Shown here one piece after another: positions 8,703 through 19,588 of a stretch of 64,000 nucleotides of DNA. The translations under genes and the position numbers were made by a program. The stretch is from contig NZ_BMXA01000003.1 in the NCBI RefSeq assembly GCF_014651515.1, positions 62,001 to 126,000 of the forward strand, in the 5' to 3' direction. Position 1 is the first letter of the stretch. Each line of letters opens with the position of its first letter. Origin of the DNA: Arenicella chitinivorans (GTDB taxonomy: Bacteria > Pseudomonadota > Gammaproteobacteria > Arenicellales > Arenicellaceae). The notes below the pieces were generated by a model that saw nothing but the letters and a program-made list of their open reading frames with translations, had not been told where the DNA came from and searched no databases.

Positions 8703-9140
8703 TTGTTAAATCGAAATTGCAAATCTCAGGTTAGAAAGCTGTCAATACTGGCGGTTTGCATTGGTCTGACGGGATGTGTGCCTTCGGATGAAGCGGAGGT
8801 TGCGATGGTGGCATTGATTGCGAATGCCAAGCAGTACCAACATCGACAGATTAAGACCTTCGGGTACTTAGCGATGAGCGACGAGCTTCGTTTGTTTTTG
8901 AATCGAGAGGATGCGCTAAACGGCAACTACTACCACTCGGTTTCGATTCAACAACTTACTGAGCGCGATCTGCAAAAAATCGATGCGTGTGTGAATCAAT
9001 ACGTTTCTGTCGCTGGCACATTTGATATGAAAAACAATCAACTCGTTTTCTCTCAAGCTGTGCGGTTTGAGGGCGGGGACAACAACATCTATTCACAACT
9101 CGTTTGTAATCACAACTTTAATATAAGAGGACAACAATGA
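8703..9140 (+). CDS. Putative lipoprotein, unknown function
   Basis: 145 residues from a TTG start preceded by AGAGGA at 8693-8698. The N-terminus has basic residues, a hydrophobic core and the lipobox LTGC (Cys25), so it should be a lipoprotein; the residue after Cys is Val, compatible with outer-membrane sorting. The body contains a fold-like segment (YQHRQIKTFGYLAMSDELRL, then QYVSVAGTFDMKNNQLVF) suggestive of a small beta barrel of OB type; this is a weak inference. Its stop codon overlaps the start of the next gene (ATGA at 9137-9140), implying translational coupling to a secreted Cys-rich peptide. Confidence 0.65.
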   Translation: MLNRNCKSQVRKLSILAVCIGLTGCVPSDEAEVAMVALIANAKQYQHRQIKTFGYLAMSDELRLFLNREDALNGNYYHSVSIQQLTERDLQKIDACVNQYVSVAGTFDMKNNQLVFSQAVRFEGGDNNIYSQLVCNHNFNIRGQQ

Positions 9141-9313
9141 AACTGACAAAACTTATTGCGACTTTGAGTGCGACTTTCATCCTTGGATTGGCAACTAGCC
9201 CGGCTTCTGCGTCGGCGTCATCGGGGGTAAATGCGGTGGATGAGCCAGGTGTTCTTTGTTATGTGTGCCCTCGGTGCTGTTCAAGAGACCCAAACATCGT
9301 GGGGCAAGAGTAA
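9137..9313 (+). CDS. 58-residue secreted Cys-rich peptide
   Basis: A short gene starting at ATG 9137, with AAGAGGA at 9125-9131 five bases upstream, and ending at TAA 9311-9313. The product has a clear Sec signal (MKLTKLIATLSATFILGLAT, then ASA sites near residue 26) and a mature part of about 32 residues. That part carries a tight cysteine cluster, CYVCPRCC, four Cys in eight residues, which could bind metal or form disulfides. Its start overlaps the stop of the lipoprotein gene, so the two are coupled. I recognise no family. A small bacteriocin-like, metal-binding or signalling peptide are all possible. Confidence 0.6.
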   Translation: MKLTKLIATLSATFILGLATSPASASASSGVNAVDEPGVLCYVCPRCCSRDPNIVGQE

Positions 9314-9482: not shown

Positions 9483-11582
9483 CTAGTGGCGCTTTTCGAG
9501 AATTTTAATTTCAGTTTCTTCGTTCAAAAATTTGGGGAACAGCACGCGTTTCTGGTCGGCAGAAATGGTGTAATCCAGTAACGGATTGAGTATCGGAAAC
9601 AAAGTCTGGCGGTCCCGCGTTGTGAGATCGACATAAGTCAAAGTATTGGTATCCTTGCCAATCGATAGGTAATAGAACCCATTACCTCGCGCATACAACG
9701 CATCGTAGGCGTAGATGTTGGTGTCGTTGACCAGTTTTTCGACGGATTTGTCGGCAAGGTTCATTTTCCAGATTCCATTCTGGTGGTATTTGTAAAACAA
9801 CATGTCGCCGTTGGCGGTTAGCTCAGGGGCGTAGCCGCCGCGTTCAGTGATTTTCACTGGTGGCTCGTCGGTACCGAGTTGTTTTTGATAAATCTGCCAG
9901 TCGCCGTCCAGGTCCGAGGAAAAGTAGATCGATTTGCCATCCAGAGCCCAGCTGGCGGTTTCAATGCGTGACGGTTTAGAACCCTGCCAAATAGTTTGAT
10001 AGGTCTTTTTAGCGACATCAAAGGTGTATACCTCGGTGTCGGTCGTGGCCAGTATGGCGCTATCATCGGGTGACCAGCGTAAACGCGGGATTAGTCGTCC
10101 ATCGGTGAATTTACTGAGTTGATACTCTCGTTGCTTACTGCGTATCCAGATCTGGGGTTGCCCGCTTCGCAGCGACATAAACGCGACATCATCGGATTGA
10201 TTAGCAAGTTCGGGATACAAATCAATTTCACTGGATTGAATAACCGGTTCGTCAGTATCGCTAGCATCGGTGGTTCGTCCCCATATATCGACGCCGGTTT
10301 CGCCAGTCATGATGGCCAGTTTGTCTTCCAGCGGGTGTGCGCTGATCGCGTGTAAGGTGTCTGTGTTACCTAGGACTTGTTTGTGAAATTTGTGTTTCAG
10401 GGAATACGCGTAAACATCGTCGTTAGTATCTATGTAGTACAGGAATTCCCCATCATGAGACCAGGCCAGGGCTTTTCGCCAACCGTTCAGGTTGAACAAC
10501 GTGGTGATTCTGGAGGTGTGTAGATCAAGCACATTGACCTCGGTATTGCCCCAATTCAGGTCACGCGAGAAGGCCAGGCGACGATTGTCATTGGATAAGG
10601 CAATATGAATATCGCCTTTTGACTTGCCGCTTTCAGGGTTGGTAAGTTGCTCACGCTTTGAAGTCTTGGTGGAATACTTATAAATTTTGTATGGGTCGAC
10701 CGCCGAGAGTGAATCGGTGTAATAAATATGTTCGTCTTGGCCCCAAACGACTTCGTTGGGTAGGCCGCTGGCGTGGCAGTCGACAACTGGCGATGCCGTG
10801 GTATTGGTATCGTGCGTCTTCATTTGCATTATCTGGCACTGGCCTTCATGGTGCCGTACAAACACCAGAGAGCTGCCGTCAGGTGACCAAGATGGCGAAG
10901 TATCGTCACCACTGCCTCGAGTTAGTTGTCTTGGAGATTCGCCATCCACCGACTGCACGTACAGTTTAAAAAATGGTTCGCCTTTCGCTCGATGGGCATA
11001 CGCAATAGAATGCCCATCGGGCGAGTAAGCTGCGTCTTTTTCCTGCCCAATTAGGACACTGAAGGGTTTAATGAGATTAAACGCCTGCATGGCCCGATAA
11101 CTGGCAGACTTGGTCAAATAATACGATCCAACCCAGAAAGCGGCTACGAGCAATGGAAGGGCGACCAATAACGATAAAAATTTTGTTGAGTTAGTCCGAG
11201 TAGGCGACAGTGGCGCTTGGTCAATACTCGTTTGCGTTGGTGCCGGTGAACCAGGATCTGGCGCCGCTTGCCATTGCACTGGTTGCACTAACTGGTAGCC
11301 TTTTTTTCGTATCGTCGTGATATAGGCATTATTTTGGTCTTCGCCAAGTATTTTGCGAATTTGATTTATGACGCGATAGATCGCATGGTCGCCGACGATA
11401 CGCCCCTTCCAAACATGCTGGATCAGTTCCTCCAGACTCACAACTTTGTTGGGATTCTCAGCGAAATGAACTAGAACAGCCATGGCCAACGGTTCCACGA
11501 AGAACTCTTGGTTCCCGAGAGAAAGCTTGTTCTGGTCCGGCGATATTTGCCAGGCGCCAAGGGTAAAGGGTCTACTCATCAA
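9483..11582 (-). CDS. CadC-like transmembrane regulator with TolB/WD40-type propeller
   Basis: 699 residues. Residues ~5-100 form an OmpR/CadC-type winged helix (LGNQEFFVEPLAMAVLVHF, SLEELIQHVWKGRIVGDHAI, TTIRKKGYQLV). A Pro/Ser/Thr linker leads to one transmembrane helix at ~135-155. The rest is a periplasmic beta-propeller with repeated TolB-type blades (DAAYSPDGHSIAYAH, DTSPSWSPDGSSLVFV, ALAWSHDGEFLYYI, ASWALDGKSIYFSSD). Such proteins sense an envelope signal and bind DNA while in the membrane. It is divergent from the precursor-peptide operon, and its gene is bracketed by two copies of a TCATTA direct repeat, so it is the obvious candidate regulator of both neighbours. Confidence 0.88.
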   Translation of the reverse strand: MMSRPFTLGAWQISPDQNKLSLGNQEFFVEPLAMAVLVHFAENPNKVVSLEELIQHVWKGRIVGDHAIYRVINQIRKILGEDQNNAYITTIRKKGYQLVQPVQWQAAPDPGSPAPTQTSIDQAPLSPTRTNSTKFLSLLVALPLLVAAFWVGSYYLTKSASYRAMQAFNLIKPFSVLIGQEKDAAYSPDGHSIAYAHRAKGEPFFKLYVQSVDGESPRQLTRGSGDDTSPSWSPDGSSLVFVRHHEGQCQIMQMKTHDTNTTASPVVDCHASGLPNEVVWGQDEHIYYTDSLSAVDPYKIYKYSTKTSKREQLTNPESGKSKGDIHIALSNDNRRLAFSRDLNWGNTEVNVLDLHTSRITTLFNLNGWRKALAWSHDGEFLYYIDTNDDVYAYSLKHKFHKQVLGNTDTLHAISAHPLEDKLAIMTGETGVDIWGRTTDASDTDEPVIQSSEIDLYPELANQSDDVAFMSLRSGQPQIWIRSKQREYQLSKFTDGRLIPRLRWSPDDSAILATTDTEVYTFDVAKKTYQTIWQGSKPSRIETASWALDGKSIYFSSDLDGDWQIYQKQLGTDEPPVKITERGGYAPELTANGDMLFYKYHQNGIWKMNLADKSVEKLVNDTNIYAYDALYARGNGFYYLSIGKDTNTLTYVDLTTRDRQTLFPILNPLLDYTISADQKRVLFPKFLNEETEIKILEKRH

Positions 11583-11805: not shown

Positions 11806-11970
11806 GTGATGCCAAATCAAAAGCTTGCAAAATTAACAAACTATTAGCCACAAATTACGTACCCATCAAACTCTAACACAGCAAATCTCTAAACTGGTCT
11901 CGTCGGTCAGGCATACACAGGTATGTCACTGACATTTAAATTTAACTTAACAATCAAACAGAGGTTCAAA

Positions 11971-12135
11971 ATGAAAAAGTTAGACCAAGAGAAAAAAGTT
12001 GCAGAGTTGTCAATTGAAAACATGGACATCATCACCGAAGTTGACGATACAGCAGGCGCGGCGCTGGCGAACGACGACCAAAATGAGTGGTTTGAGTTTT
12101 GGACGCTGACTAGCGCGCACAACGTTAACAACTAA
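11971..12135 (+). CDS. Candidate RiPP/microcin-like precursor peptide
   Basis: 54 residues. The ATG at 11971 is chosen because GAGG at 11961-11964 sits 6 nt upstream; an in-frame ATG at 11923 has no ribosome site. The leader is charged and helical (KKLDQEKKVAELSIENMDII). A junction DDTAGA at residues 25-30 fits C39-peptidase cleavage after Gly29-Ala30, with Glu23 at -8 and Val24 at -7. The core would be 24 residues, acidic and aromatic (NEWFEFWTLTSAHNVNN at its end), with no Cys, so lanthionines or disulfides are excluded. It precedes genes for an HlyD adaptor, C39 exporter, kinase and hydroxylase. Likely modification targets are Thr45, Thr47, Ser48 (phosphorylation) and His50 or Asn/Asp residues (hydroxylation); these are inference. 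Confidence 0.78.
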   Translation: MKKLDQEKKVAELSIENMDIITEVDDTAGAALANDDQNEWFEFWTLTSAHNVNN

Positions 12136-12169
12136 GCGAGCGTTCTTTACGCTTACGCGCATTGTGATG

Positions 12170-12239
12170 TGGTGGAGCCTTATGCTGGGAAACCTACCCC
12201 GAGATCCTACGCTCTCAGCTTGAGGCTCCACCATCTTTT
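12170..12239 (+). terminator. Strong hairpin between precursor gene and export/modification genes
   Basis: TGGTGGAGCCT (12170-12180) pairs perfectly over 11 bp with AGGCTCCACCA (12223-12233). An inner GCTG/CAGC can extend the structure, and TCTTTT follows. It lies 34 bp after the peptide stop and ends 23 bp before the HlyD gene. This is the expected place for an attenuator that lets the peptide be made in excess over its enzymes; an mRNA-stabilising structure is the alternative. Confidence 0.8.
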
Positions 12240-12262
12240 CGTCCTTATACGAAGCGTGTCTT

Positions 12263-13501
12263 ATGTCTCGAATTAATTCCAAATACGTCGCTGATCGACT
12301 ACCAATTTTCGTTGGGATCAGCATCTTGCTGTCTCCGATCATCGTGATCGTGCTGCTAAATTTTGTCCCTGTAACGGAACAGATTGAACAGGTCGAAGGT
12401 GTGATCTCAAGTGACAGTGGCCCCCGCAGTCTGCGTGCGGAACGTCAGTTTCTGGTTCGTAAAAACCACGTGCGTGTCAATCAACACGTTCAGAAGGGTG
12501 ATCTGTTGGTGGAGTTCGATGACCAAGAAACACGGCGGACCTTGGAGATGCAACGGTTAACTATCGAGAAGTTGGAATTTCAGATCCAGACTCTGGAATC
12601 TCAGCAAGCTCTGATCAGTGAGAATGTGGCATTGTTGGAAGACATTCATGATCAAAAAGCTCAGAAGAAAGTGTTGCTGGCTGCGCAGCAGGGGTCGCAG
12701 AAAAAGTTGCTGGACCAACAAAAAGAATTGTCAGTCAAAGCGGTTACCACGGCTAAGAAGCTGAGTCAGTCCTTAGCAAATGTTGACAGCCGCAGTATTT
12801 CAGAACTGCGTCGTCTGGAGATACTGCGTTCCACCAACAGCACGATTGGTGAATTGCAAACCCTAGAACAAAAACTAAGCGAACAGCCAATTTTGCATGC
12901 CCTAAAAGATATCGAAGCATCAATCGAGCTGTCATCGATTCGAGAAAAGATTGTCTCTTCTAAGATCGAGCTGAATGAGATTGCGACTCAGCTCAATGAC
13001 GCGCAGCAAAAAATTAAAGAAGAACAGCTGGCATATCAAAACCTAATGACTGAGGTTGCGCGGTTTTCGATTCGAGCACCCATAACCGGCACAGTAGCGC
13101 ACTTGTCTGACAACTTGAATAAGTCCAACATGATCAATAAGGATGAAGTGATTTTGATTATCTCACCTGATGTTGAACCAACGCTGAAAGCGCAACTGGC
13201 ACTGACGGATGAGCAGTATAAGGATGCACGCGTCGCACAGAATGTGAATCTAGAAATCTGGGCTTGGAACCATTTTAAACACGGCGTGGTGACTGGCAAG
13301 GTGGTCGCTATTTCACCAGAAAAAGTGACTTCGGAATTGTTAAATAAGCCGAGCTATATCGCCGATGTCGAAATTCTACAGATGCCCAAGGACTACTACA
13401 CTTTGAAACGGGGTTTCAGCCTCAAGGCAAATATCGATATTGGAACCATCAGTCTGCTTGACTACATTCTGAAGAAATTCAACCTAGAAAAACCGGCATA
13501 A
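12263..13501 (+). CDS. HlyD-family periplasmic adaptor of the peptide exporter
   Basis: 412 residues. There is a short cytoplasmic N-terminus, one transmembrane helix at ~14-35, then a lipoyl half-motif (VRVNQHVQKGDLLVEFDDQE, ~70-90). A long coiled coil follows (~90-270, rich in Gln/Lys/Glu/Leu heptads), then the second lipoyl half (FSIRAPITGTVAHL), and a beta-barrel/membrane-proximal domain to the C-terminus. It bridges the inner-membrane ABC exporter to an outer-membrane TolC-type channel, which is not encoded here. The gene is the first after the attenuator and stops 3 bp before the exporter gene. Confidence 0.9.
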   Translation: MSRINSKYVADRLPIFVGISILLSPIIVIVLLNFVPVTEQIEQVEGVISSDSGPRSLRAERQFLVRKNHVRVNQHVQKGDLLVEFDDQETRRTLEMQRLTIEKLEFQIQTLESQQALISENVALLEDIHDQKAQKKVLLAAQQGSQKKLLDQQKELSVKAVTTAKKLSQSLANVDSRSISELRRLEILRSTNSTIGELQTLEQKLSEQPILHALKDIEASIELSSIREKIVSSKIELNEIATQLNDAQQKIKEEQLAYQNLMTEVARFSIRAPITGTVAHLSDNLNKSNMINKDEVILIISPDVEPTLKAQLALTDEQYKDARVAQNVNLEIWAWNHFKHGVVTGKVVAISPEKVTSELLNKPSYIADVEILQMPKDYYTLKRGFSLKANIDIGTISLLDYILKKFNLEKPA

Positions 13502-13504
13502 ACT

Positions 13505-15970
13505 ATGAACGCTTTCGTCGAAAAAATTGTGTGCAGTAATCTAGGTGACAAACAACGCAACACCAATGATTGCGCCGTTAGCGTCGTCAAGACACTGTAC
13601 AACCTGAAAAAGATAAATATTAATCGTAACCAGATTAAGGCATCGCTGACCCTGGATGAAGAGGGCGTTTCTTTCCAAAGTGTCAAAAGTCATCTGGTGG
13701 CCAATGGTTTTGATTGCGATTACATCGCATTAGGAACCCAGTCCAATCCGCTGGCGCAGCTAGCCGACCGAACACCATTGATTGCAATGGTGACTGCTGG
13801 TTTGCGCAAGCACTTTATCTTGATCAAATCGATCTATAAAAACCACGCCTTGGTGATGGACCCAGCAAACGGTGAGTTTCGAAACTGGTCGCTTGAGACG
13901 TTAGAAGCAAAGCTCACGCATTCGACATCTAAGGTCAATGAAGACATCTTAATTGCACATACGCGACAGTACATTCAGGAGCGATTGGATTCGTATGGAC
14001 TGACAGTCGACGTGTCACTCAAAGCCAATTGCATCGAGACCTACAACAAACTAGGCTATTTTGATTGGTTCGCTAAGCAGCATGGGTTTCACGACACGCA
14101 AGATGAAAAAGCATTTCTAGGTTCGCTGATCGAGGCCGACGAAAAGAAGGTCTTGCCATCGCATTTTCGGAAGCTGCGTTACATCAACGACGCCACGAAC
14201 ATCAAAACTCCGGTGTTACTCACGGTCGATCTTGAAAACTACATTCAACCCGATGGTGTGGTGGAAGACAAACAACACAGTTCGGTGATCGCACGTTTGT
14301 TCGGCATCATTTTGCGTTCCAAGAAATCTTCTTGGTTGCTCTCGAGCTTCATGATGGTCGGATTTTTGGCTGCCATGATGACGTACATAGCTGTCTACGC
14401 GAATCAGATTCTGATCGACGAGATTTTTCCTAAGCGGCATATCCTGACCCTGTATTCATTCGCTTTTGTGCTGTTTATTTTTCGTTTTGGCGAGTTCTTT
14501 TTGAACGTACTCAAAACCGCCAGCCAGATATTTATGGATCAGATACTGGACAAATACTTCTATCAAACCTTCAGTCGCCAGTTGTTGTTTTCCAACGAGG
14601 AGTACATTCGAACCTACAGCAAAGGGGACTTGGCGCAGCGCGTCAATGACATTCTAAAAGTTAAGCAATTAGTCTCTAAATTTATCAACGACGTGTTGTT
14701 GAGTTCCGTCATCGTGGTGTTCTCGATTGGCATGTTGTTTTTCTACAATGCCACGCTTGCATTGATCGTATTTGGTATCGGCGCGCTGTATCTGGTGGTG
14801 TTTCGTTACGCGTCTTCCGTGGTGCGCAATTTGGAATCGACCCTGTTCACCGAGAAAGGCAAGTTGTTAAACACTCTGCTCGACAAAGTAGAGGGACATT
14901 CCATTATCCGCCGTTGTCAAAGCGAAACCTTTTTTATGGACGAAGATGCGGTCATCACTGAGAGCTATCTTCGCGTGCAGCAGAAAGCCCGGTTTACTGG
15001 CTTTTTCCTGTCTTACTTTCCACGCTTTATTAGCGTGATTGGTTCCATCGCGATGGTGATGGTGGCTGGGCGCTTACTCATTAACGATAACGCCTTGTCG
15101 CTGGGCCAGGTGCTGGCGGTGATTGGGCTGGCTGAGATTACCTTCAGTGCCATGCGCACGCTCCTTAGTGCACAACTTATGCTGCAGGAAAGTATTGTGG
15201 TGGTGGAGCGATTCTTTGACTTTTGCGGTGCTGAACCGGTGTCCGCGCCCAAAGTTGGTCAACGTAAGTCGATAAGTCGAATCGATATCCGTGACCTGCA
15301 CTACCAGTTTCCGAATCAGAAATTTGCATTGAACATAGATCGGATAGCATTTCACCAAGGTGAAACAGTGTACGTGGATGGCGCCAATGGCTGTGGTAAA
15401 TCCACGATGCTTAGTTTAATTGGTGGCTCGTTACAACCGACGGAGCCGCACACCATTCAGTACGTCGATCCCGACGGCGGGTTCGTTAGTGAGCCAGATG
15501 CGCGAAAAAGTGTTTTGCTGACACGACCTGAAGACAAGATTTTCAATAACACCCTTAATTTTAATATCTATTTGGGACGAGACACGCGCAATTTCGACAT
15601 CTACTCACTGGCAAAGAAAATCGGCGCCGATGACTTTATTTGTCCGAGCCAGCTTCATGTCGATGCGTTGATCAGCGACGGTGGCAGTAATTTATCGGCT
15701 GGGCAGCGTCGTAAAATACTTTTGTTACGGGCCATCGTGAGTGACTGTAGCGTGCTTATTTTCGATGAGATTTTTCGCGGTGTGGATAAAGCGTCGAAGG
15801 AGAAAATCTGTCACTTCTTCAATGAATTTGATAATCGGACCTTGATCTTCACCTCGCATGAGCCGATTGATCAGCTGCGGGTGGATCGCGTGATTTCGAT
15901 GGCTGGTGGTCGTGTCATTGACGACACCGCGAGTCATGACCAAACCATTATTTGTGAGGAGGCGGTGTAG
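13505..15970 (+). CDS. ABC exporter with N-terminal C39 peptidase (PCAT)
   Basis: 821 residues. The N-terminal C39 domain keeps its catalytic residues: Gln17 (oxyanion), Cys23 in NTNDCAVSVV, His103 in LRKHFILI and Asp119 in VMDPANG. So it should both cleave the leader after a Gly-Ala type site and export the core. A ~110-residue linker follows, then a six-helix transmembrane domain (~260-560). The nucleotide-binding domain has Walker A GANGCGKST (~627-635), signature NLSAGQRRKILLL (~729) and Walker B VLIFDEIF (~750) with the catalytic Glu. It sits between the HlyD gene and the kinase gene, which starts 2 bp after its stop. Confidence 0.93.
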   Translation: MNAFVEKIVCSNLGDKQRNTNDCAVSVVKTLYNLKKININRNQIKASLTLDEEGVSFQSVKSHLVANGFDCDYIALGTQSNPLAQLADRTPLIAMVTAGLRKHFILIKSIYKNHALVMDPANGEFRNWSLETLEAKLTHSTSKVNEDILIAHTRQYIQERLDSYGLTVDVSLKANCIETYNKLGYFDWFAKQHGFHDTQDEKAFLGSLIEADEKKVLPSHFRKLRYINDATNIKTPVLLTVDLENYIQPDGVVEDKQHSSVIARLFGIILRSKKSSWLLSSFMMVGFLAAMMTYIAVYANQILIDEIFPKRHILTLYSFAFVLFIFRFGEFFLNVLKTASQIFMDQILDKYFYQTFSRQLLFSNEEYIRTYSKGDLAQRVNDILKVKQLVSKFINDVLLSSVIVVFSIGMLFFYNATLALIVFGIGALYLVVFRYASSVVRNLESTLFTEKGKLLNTLLDKVEGHSIIRRCQSETFFMDEDAVITESYLRVQQKARFTGFFLSYFPRFISVIGSIAMVMVAGRLLINDNALSLGQVLAVIGLAEITFSAMRTLLSAQLMLQESIVVVERFFDFCGAEPVSAPKVGQRKSISRIDIRDLHYQFPNQKFALNIDRIAFHQGETVYVDGANGCGKSTMLSLIGGSLQPTEPHTIQYVDPDGGFVSEPDARKSVLLTRPEDKIFNNTLNFNIYLGRDTRNFDIYSLAKKIGADDFICPSQLHVDALISDGGSNLSAGQRRKILLLRAIVSDCSVLIFDEIFRGVDKASKEKICHFFNEFDNRTLIFTSHEPIDQLRVDRVISMAGGRVIDDTASHDQTIICEEAV

Positions 15971-15972
15971 TT

Positions 15973-17124
15973 ATGCAGCTTTACCAACAACGAGAATCGA
16001 TTCATTTTGAGGTAGCGAATCCAACCAGCGATCAGGTGATTGCGACGGTCACGCGCGGTCCAAGCAAAGCGCGATTTGCAATTAATCGAGCAATCATGAC
16101 TTTTGTGCAGCAGTTCGAAACACCTTGTACCACCGATGAGGCGATCCGCCGCTATTGTAAGCAAGAAAGAATCCAGTTGACCGACGCACGGCAGCGAGAT
16201 CTTCGTGCGTTCGCGCGCCAGATTGCTGCCACACTGCTCCTAAATCCGATTCACACCAACGCCGAAACCGCGGAGCAGTCGATCGCACCGCTCGGATTCG
16301 AGCACCGACGTACGTTTAAAGACAAGCGTTTTGATGCTGTGTGCTTGGTCAACACGCCAGACGGCTTGCAAGTGATCAAGAATATAAAAGAACAAGTCGT
16401 TACGCAGTCGGCACGTCGTGACATTCTGCGTGATCTCGAGAATGAGTTTCGGGTGCTCACGCGTCTAGACGGTGTGTCTGGGGTTGTTGCTGCGCGGACT
16501 TTCTGTGCTACCTCGCCGGCCTATTTCGCAATGGACTATGTGTGCGGAGATCGGTTGGACAAATACGTGCGTTCGCAGCCATTATGTTTGCTGCAGCGTT
16601 TGGACATGGCGATGCAGCTATTGAGGTTGTTTGCAGAGATCCACGACGCCGGTGTATTGCACGGTGATGTTCATCTTGGCAACTTTATGTGTTCGCCAAC
16701 ACGGCAGATAACCGTTATCGATTTCGGCTGTGCCAGCATGCAGGATTCAGACTACCGTCCTAGCGGTGGTGCAACACCACATTTTGCGCCACCCGAGCGT
16801 GCTTCCGAGAGCTGGACCCGGGTGTGCCATTCACAACCAACGCGAGCAAGCGAGTGTTACCAGCTAGGTATTGTGATTGCCTATGTGATGACCGGCACAC
16901 TGCCGTTTCGGGGTAAAACCTATCGCGAATTGCACCGTGCCATTATGTCCGCTGAATATAGGCTGCCAACAACAACGCCGGATGGGCAGCCGATTCCGCC
17001 AGCGCTGCACAATCTGATTGGCGACATGTTGCAGCGAAACCCCGATGACCGACCATCCGACCTGATGCGTCTGGCTCACCAATTTCAATCTTATGCAAAC
17101 CAGGAGAGTGCCCATGTTATTTAG
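15973..17124 (+). CDS. Protein kinase-fold enzyme with N-terminal RRE/PqqD-like region
   Basis: 383 residues. The kinase core runs from ~108 to 375: Lys136 in LQVIKNIK, a helix-C Glu near 156-158, catalytic loop HGDVHLGN (230-237, Asp232 and Asn237), DFG at 250-252, and the activation-end APPERAS. All catalytic residues are present, so it should be active. Residues ~10-92 have the strand-strand-helix-helix pattern of PqqD-like RiPP recognition elements (FAINRAIMTFVQQF, CTTDEAIRRYC, LRAFARQIAATLLL). That call is from pattern only. There is no lyase or cyclase domain, so it is not a class III/IV lanthipeptide synthetase. Its last 11 bases overlap the hydroxylase gene. Confidence 0.82.
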   Translation: MQLYQQRESIHFEVANPTSDQVIATVTRGPSKARFAINRAIMTFVQQFETPCTTDEAIRRYCKQERIQLTDARQRDLRAFARQIAATLLLNPIHTNAETAEQSIAPLGFEHRRTFKDKRFDAVCLVNTPDGLQVIKNIKEQVVTQSARRDILRDLENEFRVLTRLDGVSGVVAARTFCATSPAYFAMDYVCGDRLDKYVRSQPLCLLQRLDMAMQLLRLFAEIHDAGVLHGDVHLGNFMCSPTRQITVIDFGCASMQDSDYRPSGGATPHFAPPERASESWTRVCHSQPTRASECYQLGIVIAYVMTGTLPFRGKTYRELHRAIMSAEYRLPTTTPDGQPIPPALHNLIGDMLQRNPDDRPSDLMRLAHQFQSYANQESAHVI

Positions 17125-18307
17125 TCAACTTGATGACTCGACACCGGACAATGGTGTTGTCAGTGATTTCACCCTAGAAAGTGTGCTGCGGCCGCTGACC
17201 GCACAGGACTTTTTTGATGATTATTGGGAGAAAAAGCCCTTTATCATTAAACGCAATAACCCAGATTACTATAAAGAGATTCTGAATCTAGAGACCTTGA
17301 ACGAAGTGTTTGCTTCTCGTATGTTTCGAGCGTCGGACATGCGTATTTTTAATAATGGTGAGAAGCGTGAATTCCAAGCATTTTCGAAGAAGAACAAAGC
17401 CAACGGCAACGTGGTGTTGAAAGAATTTGAAAATGGTTCGACAATTATTTTTGAAAACTTGGATCGCAATCATCTGCAGCTCGCCAAATTGATTCGAAAC
17501 CTTGAAAATGAACTGCATATTGATTTGCGTACCAATGTGTATCTCACGCCAGCGCAGGCAACCGGCTTCAAGGCACATTGGGATACACACTGTGTGCTGG
17601 TGATGCAGGTTCACGGCACCAAGCAATGGGAGATTTATGATAACCCGGTACCACTGCCCACAGAGAATCAAAAATACGACCCAGAGACCGGCGCGAAGGC
17701 GCAACACATTACCTCATTTCTAATGGAAGAAGGTGACATTGCTTATATTCCGCGCGGCTTCGTGCACAAAGCCAGTGCGCAGGACCAAGCTAGCTTGCAC
17801 GTGACTATGGGGCTGCGTCCCTTGGCGGTAAAAGACTTGTTGCGTGAGGTATTAAACAGTGTTTGCAAACAACATGTCGATCTTCGGCATGGTTTATTAC
17901 CCAAAGGCGAATTTGATGATGAAGCCTTGCGTGCCCAGTTGGTTGAGATCATGCAGCAGGCCGACTTATCTAAGTACCGCGAGCGGCTATACAAGAAATA
18001 TATTCTAGAACGGTATCCGATTCTGGACACGCAACTCAGCAGTTTGGTCAAAAATAATGTGATCGAGCAAGAAACTGATTGCCAAGTGAAACCCCACATG
18101 GTGTGGAAAGTGTTCGAAAACGAGTCGCAGTTGTCACTGTTGTTCGACGGTAAGTCAATGCATTTTCCGAAAGCCATGAAACCAAGCCTGACGTTCTTCG
18201 AACAATGTCGAAAGTTCTGCGTTGATCAAATTCCGGGTCTTGATCAAAAGAGTCGTCAAATATTAGCACAGCGTCTGGTGCATGAAGGCTTTCTAGAGGT
18301 GCATTAG
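17114..18307 (+). CDS. JmjC-domain Fe(II)/2-oxoglutarate hydroxylase, ribosomal-oxygenase type
   Basis: 397 residues from ATG 17114, chosen over an upstream in-frame ATG at 17093 because AGGAGAG at 17102-17108 is correctly spaced. The cupin/JmjC core carries the iron triad His155-x-Asp157 (FKAHWDTHCVLVM) and His218 (IPRGFVHKA). The basic residue in GTKQWEIY probably contacts 2-oxoglutarate. The C-terminal ~100 residues look like the winged-helix domain of the YcfD/MINA53/NO66 group, which hydroxylates Arg or His of ribosomal proteins. Here it lies inside a peptide export operon, so the precursor peptide is the more likely substrate. Overlap with the kinase gene implies coupled translation. 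Confidence 0.87.
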   Translation: MLFSQLDDSTPDNGVVSDFTLESVLRPLTAQDFFDDYWEKKPFIIKRNNPDYYKEILNLETLNEVFASRMFRASDMRIFNNGEKREFQAFSKKNKANGNVVLKEFENGSTIIFENLDRNHLQLAKLIRNLENELHIDLRTNVYLTPAQATGFKAHWDTHCVLVMQVHGTKQWEIYDNPVPLPTENQKYDPETGAKAQHITSFLMEEGDIAYIPRGFVHKASAQDQASLHVTMGLRPLAVKDLLREVLNSVCKQHVDLRHGLLPKGEFDDEALRAQLVEIMQQADLSKYRERLYKKYILERYPILDTQLSSLVKNNVIEQETDCQVKPHMVWKVFENESQLSLLFDGKSMHFPKAMKPSLTFFEQCRKFCVDQIPGLDQKSRQILAQRLVHEGFLEVH

Positions 18308-18310
18308 CGT

Positions 18311-19588
18311 ATGGTTCGGCGCTGGCGTCGTATAAGTATGTGGATCGGGTTGTCCCTCATTATCATCGCCCTGACGTGGTTTGTCCTTGCCATGTCACGG
18401 GCGGTGGTGGTGTTCACAGAAGGGGGTATTTATCAACGCATCATGATTCCGGTTGGGGCAAAGTTTCTAGCCTGGCGTGCAGACTTGGCAATCCATGCAG
18501 AGCAACCCGATTTGCGTATGCCACAAGGACCAATTGTGGCACCACGCGCGGATAATCGCTATGAAGTTTCTTGGGTGTGTGGTCAAGATGTACAGCGTGA
18601 ACTGGTGACAGCAACCGAAATTGACCTCCAATGTCGAGATCATCGGCGACATATTCATTGGATGACAACACAAGCAACACAGCGGCCCTTCAGCTCAGAC
18701 AACAACGTAGCCGTGATCAGCGATTTAGAGGGGAATTTGGCGTATTTTCTGGATTGGGGTAAACACGCTGGTGTATTAGATGATGCTGGGCGATGGGCCT
18801 TTGGAGATGGTCAGCTGGTGATTCTTGGTGACAGCGTGGATCGTGGTCGCCAGGTTTTCGATTTGCTGTGGAAATTGCATGCACTTGAATATGAAGCAAC
18901 CATCGCGGGTGGTGCGGTACATGTAATTTTAGGCAATCATGAACAGTACGTGTTGCAAGGCCGACTCTCGAGTGTGGAACCGGAACACCTTTGGGCCACT
19001 GAACAAATGATGCCGTATGCGGATGCCTGGTCTGCTCAAACGGTGCTTGGTCGGTGGTTGCGCAGTAAACCAATTATGCTGACGCTGGGCGACACGCTAT
19101 TCGTGCATGGTGGCATCAGTCCCAGTGCATTACAGCTGGGTTTGACGGTGGAACAGTGGAATCAGCGGCATCGCAGTGCCCTTATGCTCAACAATCATGA
19201 TCCTCAAGTATTCGGGCCAACGTCGCCGACGCAATACCGTGGTTACTTATATGCAACCGACGCCTATTCGCTGGCAACCCAATCGCACATTGAAGCAACG
19301 TTAACACAGTTCGGTGTCCAACGAATCGTGGTTGGCCATACGCAGACAGAGGCTCTAACACCGCGTTTTAATAATCGAGTCTTCGCAATCGAGCTGGGCG
19401 AACACGCTGGCGACTATTTAATGATCATGAATCATGAGCCGGTGGTGAAGCAGAGCGAACTACGCAAACAGCGATTTCGTGACCCCAATACACATCAGCG
19501 ACAATTTGAATTACTTAACCGCTCAGACTGGCGAGCATTTTTTGGTGTGTTTATTACGGCAGGTCGATCTGTTTTTGCGTCTATGTGA
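18311..19588 (+). CDS. Membrane-anchored PPP-type metallophosphatase, catalytic domain probably periplasmic
   Basis: 425 residues. A basic N-terminus (RRWRR) precedes a transmembrane helix at ~11-29, so the bulk should lie outside the cytoplasm. After a ~100-residue extra domain come the PPP motifs: SDLEGN (Asp138, Glu140), GDSVDRG (172-178), LGNHE (207-211), VHGG (265-268) and VVGHTQ (340-345). The first motif has Glu where the family normally has His (DxH), which may alter metal choice or activity. The start is 3 bp after the hydroxylase stop, so it is the last gene of the five-gene block. A peptide-phosphate substrate is an inference from context. Confidence 0.83.
   Translation: MVRRWRRISMWIGLSLIIIALTWFVLAMSRAVVVFTEGGIYQRIMIPVGAKFLAWRADLAIHAEQPDLRMPQGPIVAPRADNRYEVSWVCGQDVQRELVTATEIDLQCRDHRRHIHWMTTQATQRPFSSDNNVAVISDLEGNLAYFLDWGKHAGVLDDAGRWAFGDGQLVILGDSVDRGRQVFDLLWKLHALEYEATIAGGAVHVILGNHEQYVLQGRLSSVEPEHLWATEQMMPYADAWSAQTVLGRWLRSKPIMLTLGDTLFVHGGISPSALQLGLTVEQWNQRHRSALMLNNHDPQVFGPTSPTQYRGYLYATDAYSLATQSHIEATLTQFGVQRIVVGHTQTEALTPRFNNRVFAIELGEHAGDYLMIMNHEPVVKQSELRKQRFRDPNTHQRQFELLNRSDWRAFFGVFITAGRSVFASM

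Follow-up and report, generated by a model that had tools for sequence, protein, structure and literature searches.

A conserved, probably undescribed RiPP-type operon with a kinase, a JmjC oxygenase and a phosphatase in Arenicella chitinivorans

Gene content of the operon

A 64,000-nucleotide stretch of the Arenicella chitinivorans genome (contig NZ_BMXA01000003.1, positions 62,001 to 126,000; hereafter the window) carries an operon in which a short peptide gene is followed by genes for two export components, a kinase, a JmjC oxygenase and a phosphatase. Its composition is of the kind seen for ribosomally synthesized and post-translationally modified peptides (RiPPs). The six open reading frames (ORFs) placed here by the initial annotation are all found, and Pfam/NCBIfam profiles back each enzyme and transport domain. 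The five genes 3' of the peptide are separated by gaps of 2–3 bases or overlap. This conserved RiPP-type operon is real, and it is probably undescribed.

The precursor peptide gene (11971-12135, +) encodes 54 amino acids. From the sequence, an AGAGG ribosome-binding site (11960-11964, +) lies 6 nt 5' of the ATG at 11971. Sequence and folding place a hairpin followed by TTTT, resembling a terminator or attenuator (12166-12239, +), between the peptide and HlyD genes; the predicted fold of this intergenic stretch is -52.9 kcal/mol. Such a peptide-hairpin-HlyD layout would yield much peptide and less enzyme.

Export is represented by a HlyD-type periplasmic adaptor (12263-13501, +; PF13437) and a C39 peptidase-ABC exporter (13505-15970, +; PF03412, PF00664 and PF00005). 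In an alignment with the related exporter of Aliikangiella sp. G2MR2-5 (locus L068), the C39 catalytic residues C23/H103/D119 and the ABC motifs are intact. Its scores against curated exporter families all fall far short of the respective cut-offs. TolC-family proteins are encoded elsewhere in the genome.

Among NCBIfam models, the Ser/Thr-type kinase (15973-17124, +; PF00069) comes nearest to that of LanL, a class IV lanthipeptide synthetase; the match (E=9e-28) is to the kinase domain and falls far short of the model cut-off. K139, HGDxHxxN and DFG are present; conserved in the alignment are the catalytic Lys, the HGDxHxxN motif and the first two residues of DFG. Three strands and three helices are predicted within the first 90 residues, with a predicted local distance difference test (pLDDT) score of about 40-70 over residues 8-87. 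Three strands followed by three helices is the topology of the RiPP recognition element (RRE) (PMC12710340), and residues 8-87 might be RRE-like, an assignment of low confidence.

The JmjC_2 2-oxoglutarate oxygenase gene (17093 or 17114 to 18307, +; PF08007) overlaps the 3' end of the kinase gene. The metal triad H162/D164/H225 and K177, the lysine for 2-oxoglutarate, are invariant in 33 homologues. The structural model is confident (pLDDT 90.9) and aligns from end to end with NO66 and MINA53, a C-terminal winged-helix (RRE-like) domain included. The enzyme therefore has the HxD...H triad, full-length fold and winged helix of the ribosomal-oxygenase (ROX) type of JmjC_2 protein.

The last gene encodes a membrane-anchored metallophosphatase, probably periplasmic (18311-19588, +; PF00149). 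Among solved structures its nearest relatives are those of a Shewanella protein-tyrosine phosphatase, also named psychrophilic phosphatase I, with homology over the catalytic domain. The N-terminus is basic and is followed by a single transmembrane (TM) segment, and a Cys pair is conserved; the TM segment and Cys pair suggest a periplasmic phosphatase domain. The metal motifs of the Shewanella type are DxH, GDxxDR and GNHE. GD..D and GNHE are retained in the window, whereas the first motif (18722-18730, +) reads DLEG against DxHG in relatives, the Aliikangiella protein having DLH and the Shewanella enzyme DVH.

Conservation of the precursor and of the operon

The search for JmjC homologues covered 109 genomes of the order to which the window belongs, samples at class and phylum level, plasmids and GTDB contigs. 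The GTDB contigs were searched with a 10-sequence JmjC alignment; a single JmjC protein as the genome-contig query matched nothing. The whole gene set is present in 1 of the best 80 GTDB loci, that of the distant marine bacterium Aliikangiella sp. G2MR2-5, and further operons may lie beyond these 80. Identities to the window proteins are 24.6% for HlyD (E=1e-26), 32.6% for the exporter (E=2e-141), 26.5% for the kinase (E=4e-34), 27.8% for the phosphatase (E=5e-55) and 31.4% for the JmjC protein (E=2e-72). The Aliikangiella gene order (peptide-HlyD-exporter-kinase-second JmjC-phosphatase-JmjC-degenerate cupin) differs from that of the window. In a 63-protein tree with some long branches, the two JmjC proteins are sisters (support 100/95).

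Aliikangiella is taken to belong to another order, because it is absent from the search of the window's order though its JmjC protein would pass the threshold. The operon is therefore more than a chance association, since the same five genes and a homologous peptide occur together in an organism of a different order. Among the 109 genomes of the window's order, one other has a JmjC relative at the threshold used, in a different setting. Exporter searches of 395 genomes from the order of Aliikangiella, and of 40 from its family, did not reveal a third operon, and plasmids and viral contigs gave no close exporter match. The kinase alone as a query returned generic kinases, and the nearest plasmid phosphatase (Parabacteroides) has no peptide neighbourhood.

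The window precursor reads MKKLDQEKKVAELSIENMDIITEVDDTAG/AALANDDQNEWFEFWTLTSAHNVNN, the slash marking a guessed cut on the C-terminal side of a conserved AG, and matches no Pfam or NCBIfam family. The initial annotation had tied its proposal to a peptide conserved along with the operon. In the one relative found this is so: a homologous peptide (L068:1944-2096), MKTETENKVNKELDLNDVELITNVETKAGVWETPPGEVDKNEWWTITRNF, is encoded just 5' of the HlyD gene. The local alignment of the two peptides scores 66 (BLOSUM62), a value reached by 0 of 5000 shuffles (maximum 57). The Aliikangiella peptide is the top match to the window peptide among 201 ORFs of its locus (next 36), and in the reverse search the window peptide ranks first among 786 ORFs (next 42). 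Against the whole 4.03 Mb window genome, the Aliikangiella peptide returns the window peptide as its sole reported match, at E=0.2, in keeping with the shortness and divergence of the query.

Both peptides share a leader motif, EL....[DE][IL]IT.V...AG, and a core motif, D.NEW..WT[LI]T. Cys is absent from both cores, and His is absent from the Aliikangiella core. A short gene-encoded precursor with conserved leader and core, adjoined by modifying enzymes, is what generally marks a RiPP, and it is found here. Both leaders read I-x-x-V-x-x-x-A-G, whereas the canonical double-glycine leader is L-x-x-V-x-G-[GAS] at set spacing. The earlier proposal of a cut after a double-glycine-type GA, giving a 24-residue core, is not supported: the Aliikangiella peptide reads AG-V at this point, and canonical GG spacing is missing from both leaders. 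Judged from the two sequences, the A-G common to both is a better guess for the cut than GA.

Two further genes adjoin the Aliikangiella operon. One encodes a tryptophan halogenase (L068:47-1555, -), next to an operon whose core is Trp-rich; it is left out of the system because it has no counterpart in the window. The other encodes a third JmjC-like protein (L068:11213-11863, +) without the HxDxH motif.

Proposed pathway and competing explanations

The operon probably makes a linear RiPP that is both phosphorylated and hydroxylated. The best-supported reading has the kinase and the JmjC enzyme acting on the peptide, and it is likely that all operon enzymes act on this one peptide. The leader would be bound by RRE-like domains, N-terminal in the kinase and C-terminal in the JmjC protein. 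The cytoplasmic LanL-like kinase would phosphorylate Ser/Thr of the core, most likely the Thr of W-T-[LI]-T, the most economical phosphate site. The JmjC enzyme would hydroxylate a conserved side chain, most likely the Asp or Asn of D-x-N-E-W, with Trp also possible. The C39 exporter and HlyD, together with a TolC encoded elsewhere, would cut the leader near A-G and export the core. The anchored phosphatase, presumably facing the periplasm, might then strip phosphate from the peptide or tune its activity.

MINA53 and NO66 share fold and metal site with the window enzyme, but they are ribosomal histidyl oxygenases, and the window JmjC gene lies in a peptide operon. Histidine hydroxylation on the MINA53 model was rejected as the conserved function, the Aliikangiella core having no His, and His is an unlikely +16 Da site.

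Several points weigh against this pathway. Modification of the peptide is predicted from the genes. The structural model of the kinase has low confidence (pLDDT 53.6), neither the kinase nor any of the 33 JmjC proteins matches the PqqD family (PF05402), and the RRE-like domains of the two enzymes give no profile match to each other. The C39 cut site is uncertain, as the leaders lack canonical GG spacing. The conserved motifs come from two peptides, in the two operons found. Finally, with a metal ligand changed from His to Glu, the activity of the window phosphatase is not assured.

A more pointed version of this pathway treats the phosphate as a protecting group: a toxic peptide would be kept inactive by the cytoplasmic kinase and activated after export by the periplasmic phosphatase. 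Streptomycin phosphate offers an analogy. The proposal is tentative. Consistent with it, the kinase lacks a TM segment, and the phosphatase places its Cys pair, behind the TM segment and basic N-terminus, on the presumed outside. Kinase and phosphatase genes are kept in both operons, the phosphatase is related to a protein phosphatase, and the operon has no other obvious immunity gene. However, the topology is a prediction, the Glu ligand noted above stands against the scheme, and toxicity of the peptide is putative. Taken furthest, the system would constitute a new class of RiPP: a eukaryotic-type kinase would add a reversible phosphate cap, which the periplasmic phosphatase would remove after export as a means of self-protection, and the JmjC enzyme would hydroxylate the same core. 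This fuller version is doubtful.

Alternatively, the locus might encode an ordinary C39/HlyD microcin, with the peptide unmodified or singly modified and the kinase and/or JmjC enzyme directed at the exporter, a regulator or the ribosome. The JmjC fold is that of a ribosomal oxygenase and the RRE claims are weak by sequence, both of which fit this idea. It is nevertheless unlikely: kinase, JmjC enzyme and phosphatase accompany the peptide across orders despite the changed gene order, and JmjC relatives adjoin many different RiPP-type precursors.

The peptide could also be a secreted signal whose active state is set by the kinase and phosphatase and which is sensed by a neighbouring membrane regulator. 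A divergently transcribed CadC-like winged-helix regulator with one TM segment and a beta-propeller domain (window 9483-11582, -) does adjoin the operon, but divergent adjacency is weak by itself and no such regulator adjoins the Aliikangiella operon, which makes a signalling role improbable.

Least plausible by far is a lanthipeptide-like fate, with phosphorylated Ser/Thr eliminated to dehydro residues or cyclised: the kinase domain is nearest to LanL/LanKC, but the phosphate is not expected to be converted to lanthionine because no lyase or LanC-type cyclase domain occurs in any operon protein (Pfam/NCBIfam) and both cores lack Cys, and this reading was rejected.

Relation to known systems and to other JmjC-linked peptides

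The initial annotation had described a RiPP/microcin-like cluster with an enzyme set known from no described family. As a combination this stands: no described family was found, and a survey covering mostly literature outside subscription journals turned up no publication in which a kinase of eukaryotic type occurs together with a JmjC enzyme, a phosphatase and a C39 exporter. The JmjC component by itself is not new. JmjC enzymes adjoining RiPP precursors are already published (PMC12710340, PMC12707348, PMC12257519), and the association recurs in many of the loci gathered here.

Among these precedents, BipG is the JmjC ornithine hydroxylase of biphenomycin (PMC12707348), and JmjC-RRE proteins occur in RiPP-like contexts (PMC12710340). 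The window shares with them a JmjC hydroxylase in a RiPP cluster and an RRE-like fold fused to JmjC. The biphenomycin system, however, involves MNIO, B12-binding radical S-adenosylmethionine and HExxH enzymes, and has no kinase, C39 exporter or phosphatase.

Phosphorylated linear RiPPs are likewise published, as the linear polyphosphorylated peptides (LPPs) of Bacillota, made with an HprK-like kinase (Nat Commun 2026, PMC13381572). Like them, the window product would be a linear RiPP with phosphorylation as the primary modification, guided by leader and RRE and served by a dedicated exporter. LPP systems have an HprK-like kinase, a discrete RRE, an SpI-like peptidase and an NTP transferase, whereas the window has a kinase of eukaryotic type to which a putative RRE-like domain is fused, a JmjC enzyme, a C39 exporter and a phosphatase, and so falls outside the LPP definition.

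Class III/IV lanthipeptide synthetases (LanKC/LanL) supply the nearest NCBIfam kinase domain, but the window kinase is a stand-alone domain preceded by a putative RRE-like region. Class II microcins and double-glycine bacteriocins share the layout of peptide, C39-ABC exporter and HlyD and the C39 triad; the window differs from them in its non-canonical leader, three extra enzymes and an exporter below curated cut-offs. Macrocyclisation by a 2-oxoglutarate dioxygenase in RiPPs was reportedly described in J Am Chem Soc in 2025, and that enzyme may be related.

Many MINA-like JmjC genes elsewhere adjoin short ORFs with a leader-like L[TS]x[DE][DE]I-x-T, Asp-rich or DADNG-repeat tails and often a twin-arginine signal. 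Loci with such peptides are L034, L059, L070, L071, L081, L082, L090, L109, L116, L117 and L132; other JmjC-adjoining short peptides are of the NHLP or Nif11 type. A strict pattern of the L[TS]x[DE][DE]I-x-T type occurs in 14 of 602 near ORFs against 9 of 927 far ORFs, a modest excess that serves as a lead and not a test, the pattern having been picked after some of these peptides were seen. To the eye, most of the peptides matched near JmjC genes are of a single kind. The window leader (MDIIT) loosely resembles the pattern.

In the same genus (G012), a JmjC domain appears by eye to be fused to a sulfotransferase-like region (L049:1038-6148, +). HPr-kinase-like and asparagine-synthetase-like genes lie 5' of it, again pairing JmjC with a kinase in what looks by eye like a lasso-like context. 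In the window itself, a lipoprotein-like ORF (8703-9313, +) overlaps an ORF of 58 aa whose N-terminus is signal-like and whose end is rich in Cys (CYVCPRCC); no match to a family was found.

If the proposed pathway is correct, the operon would represent a RiPP class built by signalling-type enzymes (protein kinase, JmjC hydroxylase and protein phosphatase) and not by the usual peptide cyclases, and peptides would become known substrates for a bacterial branch of the MINA53/NO66 family. With two short precursors and their enzymes named, the proposal is directly testable in Escherichia coli. Beyond this operon, the recurring pairs of JmjC genes and Asp-rich peptides point to a wider family of JmjC-linked peptides.
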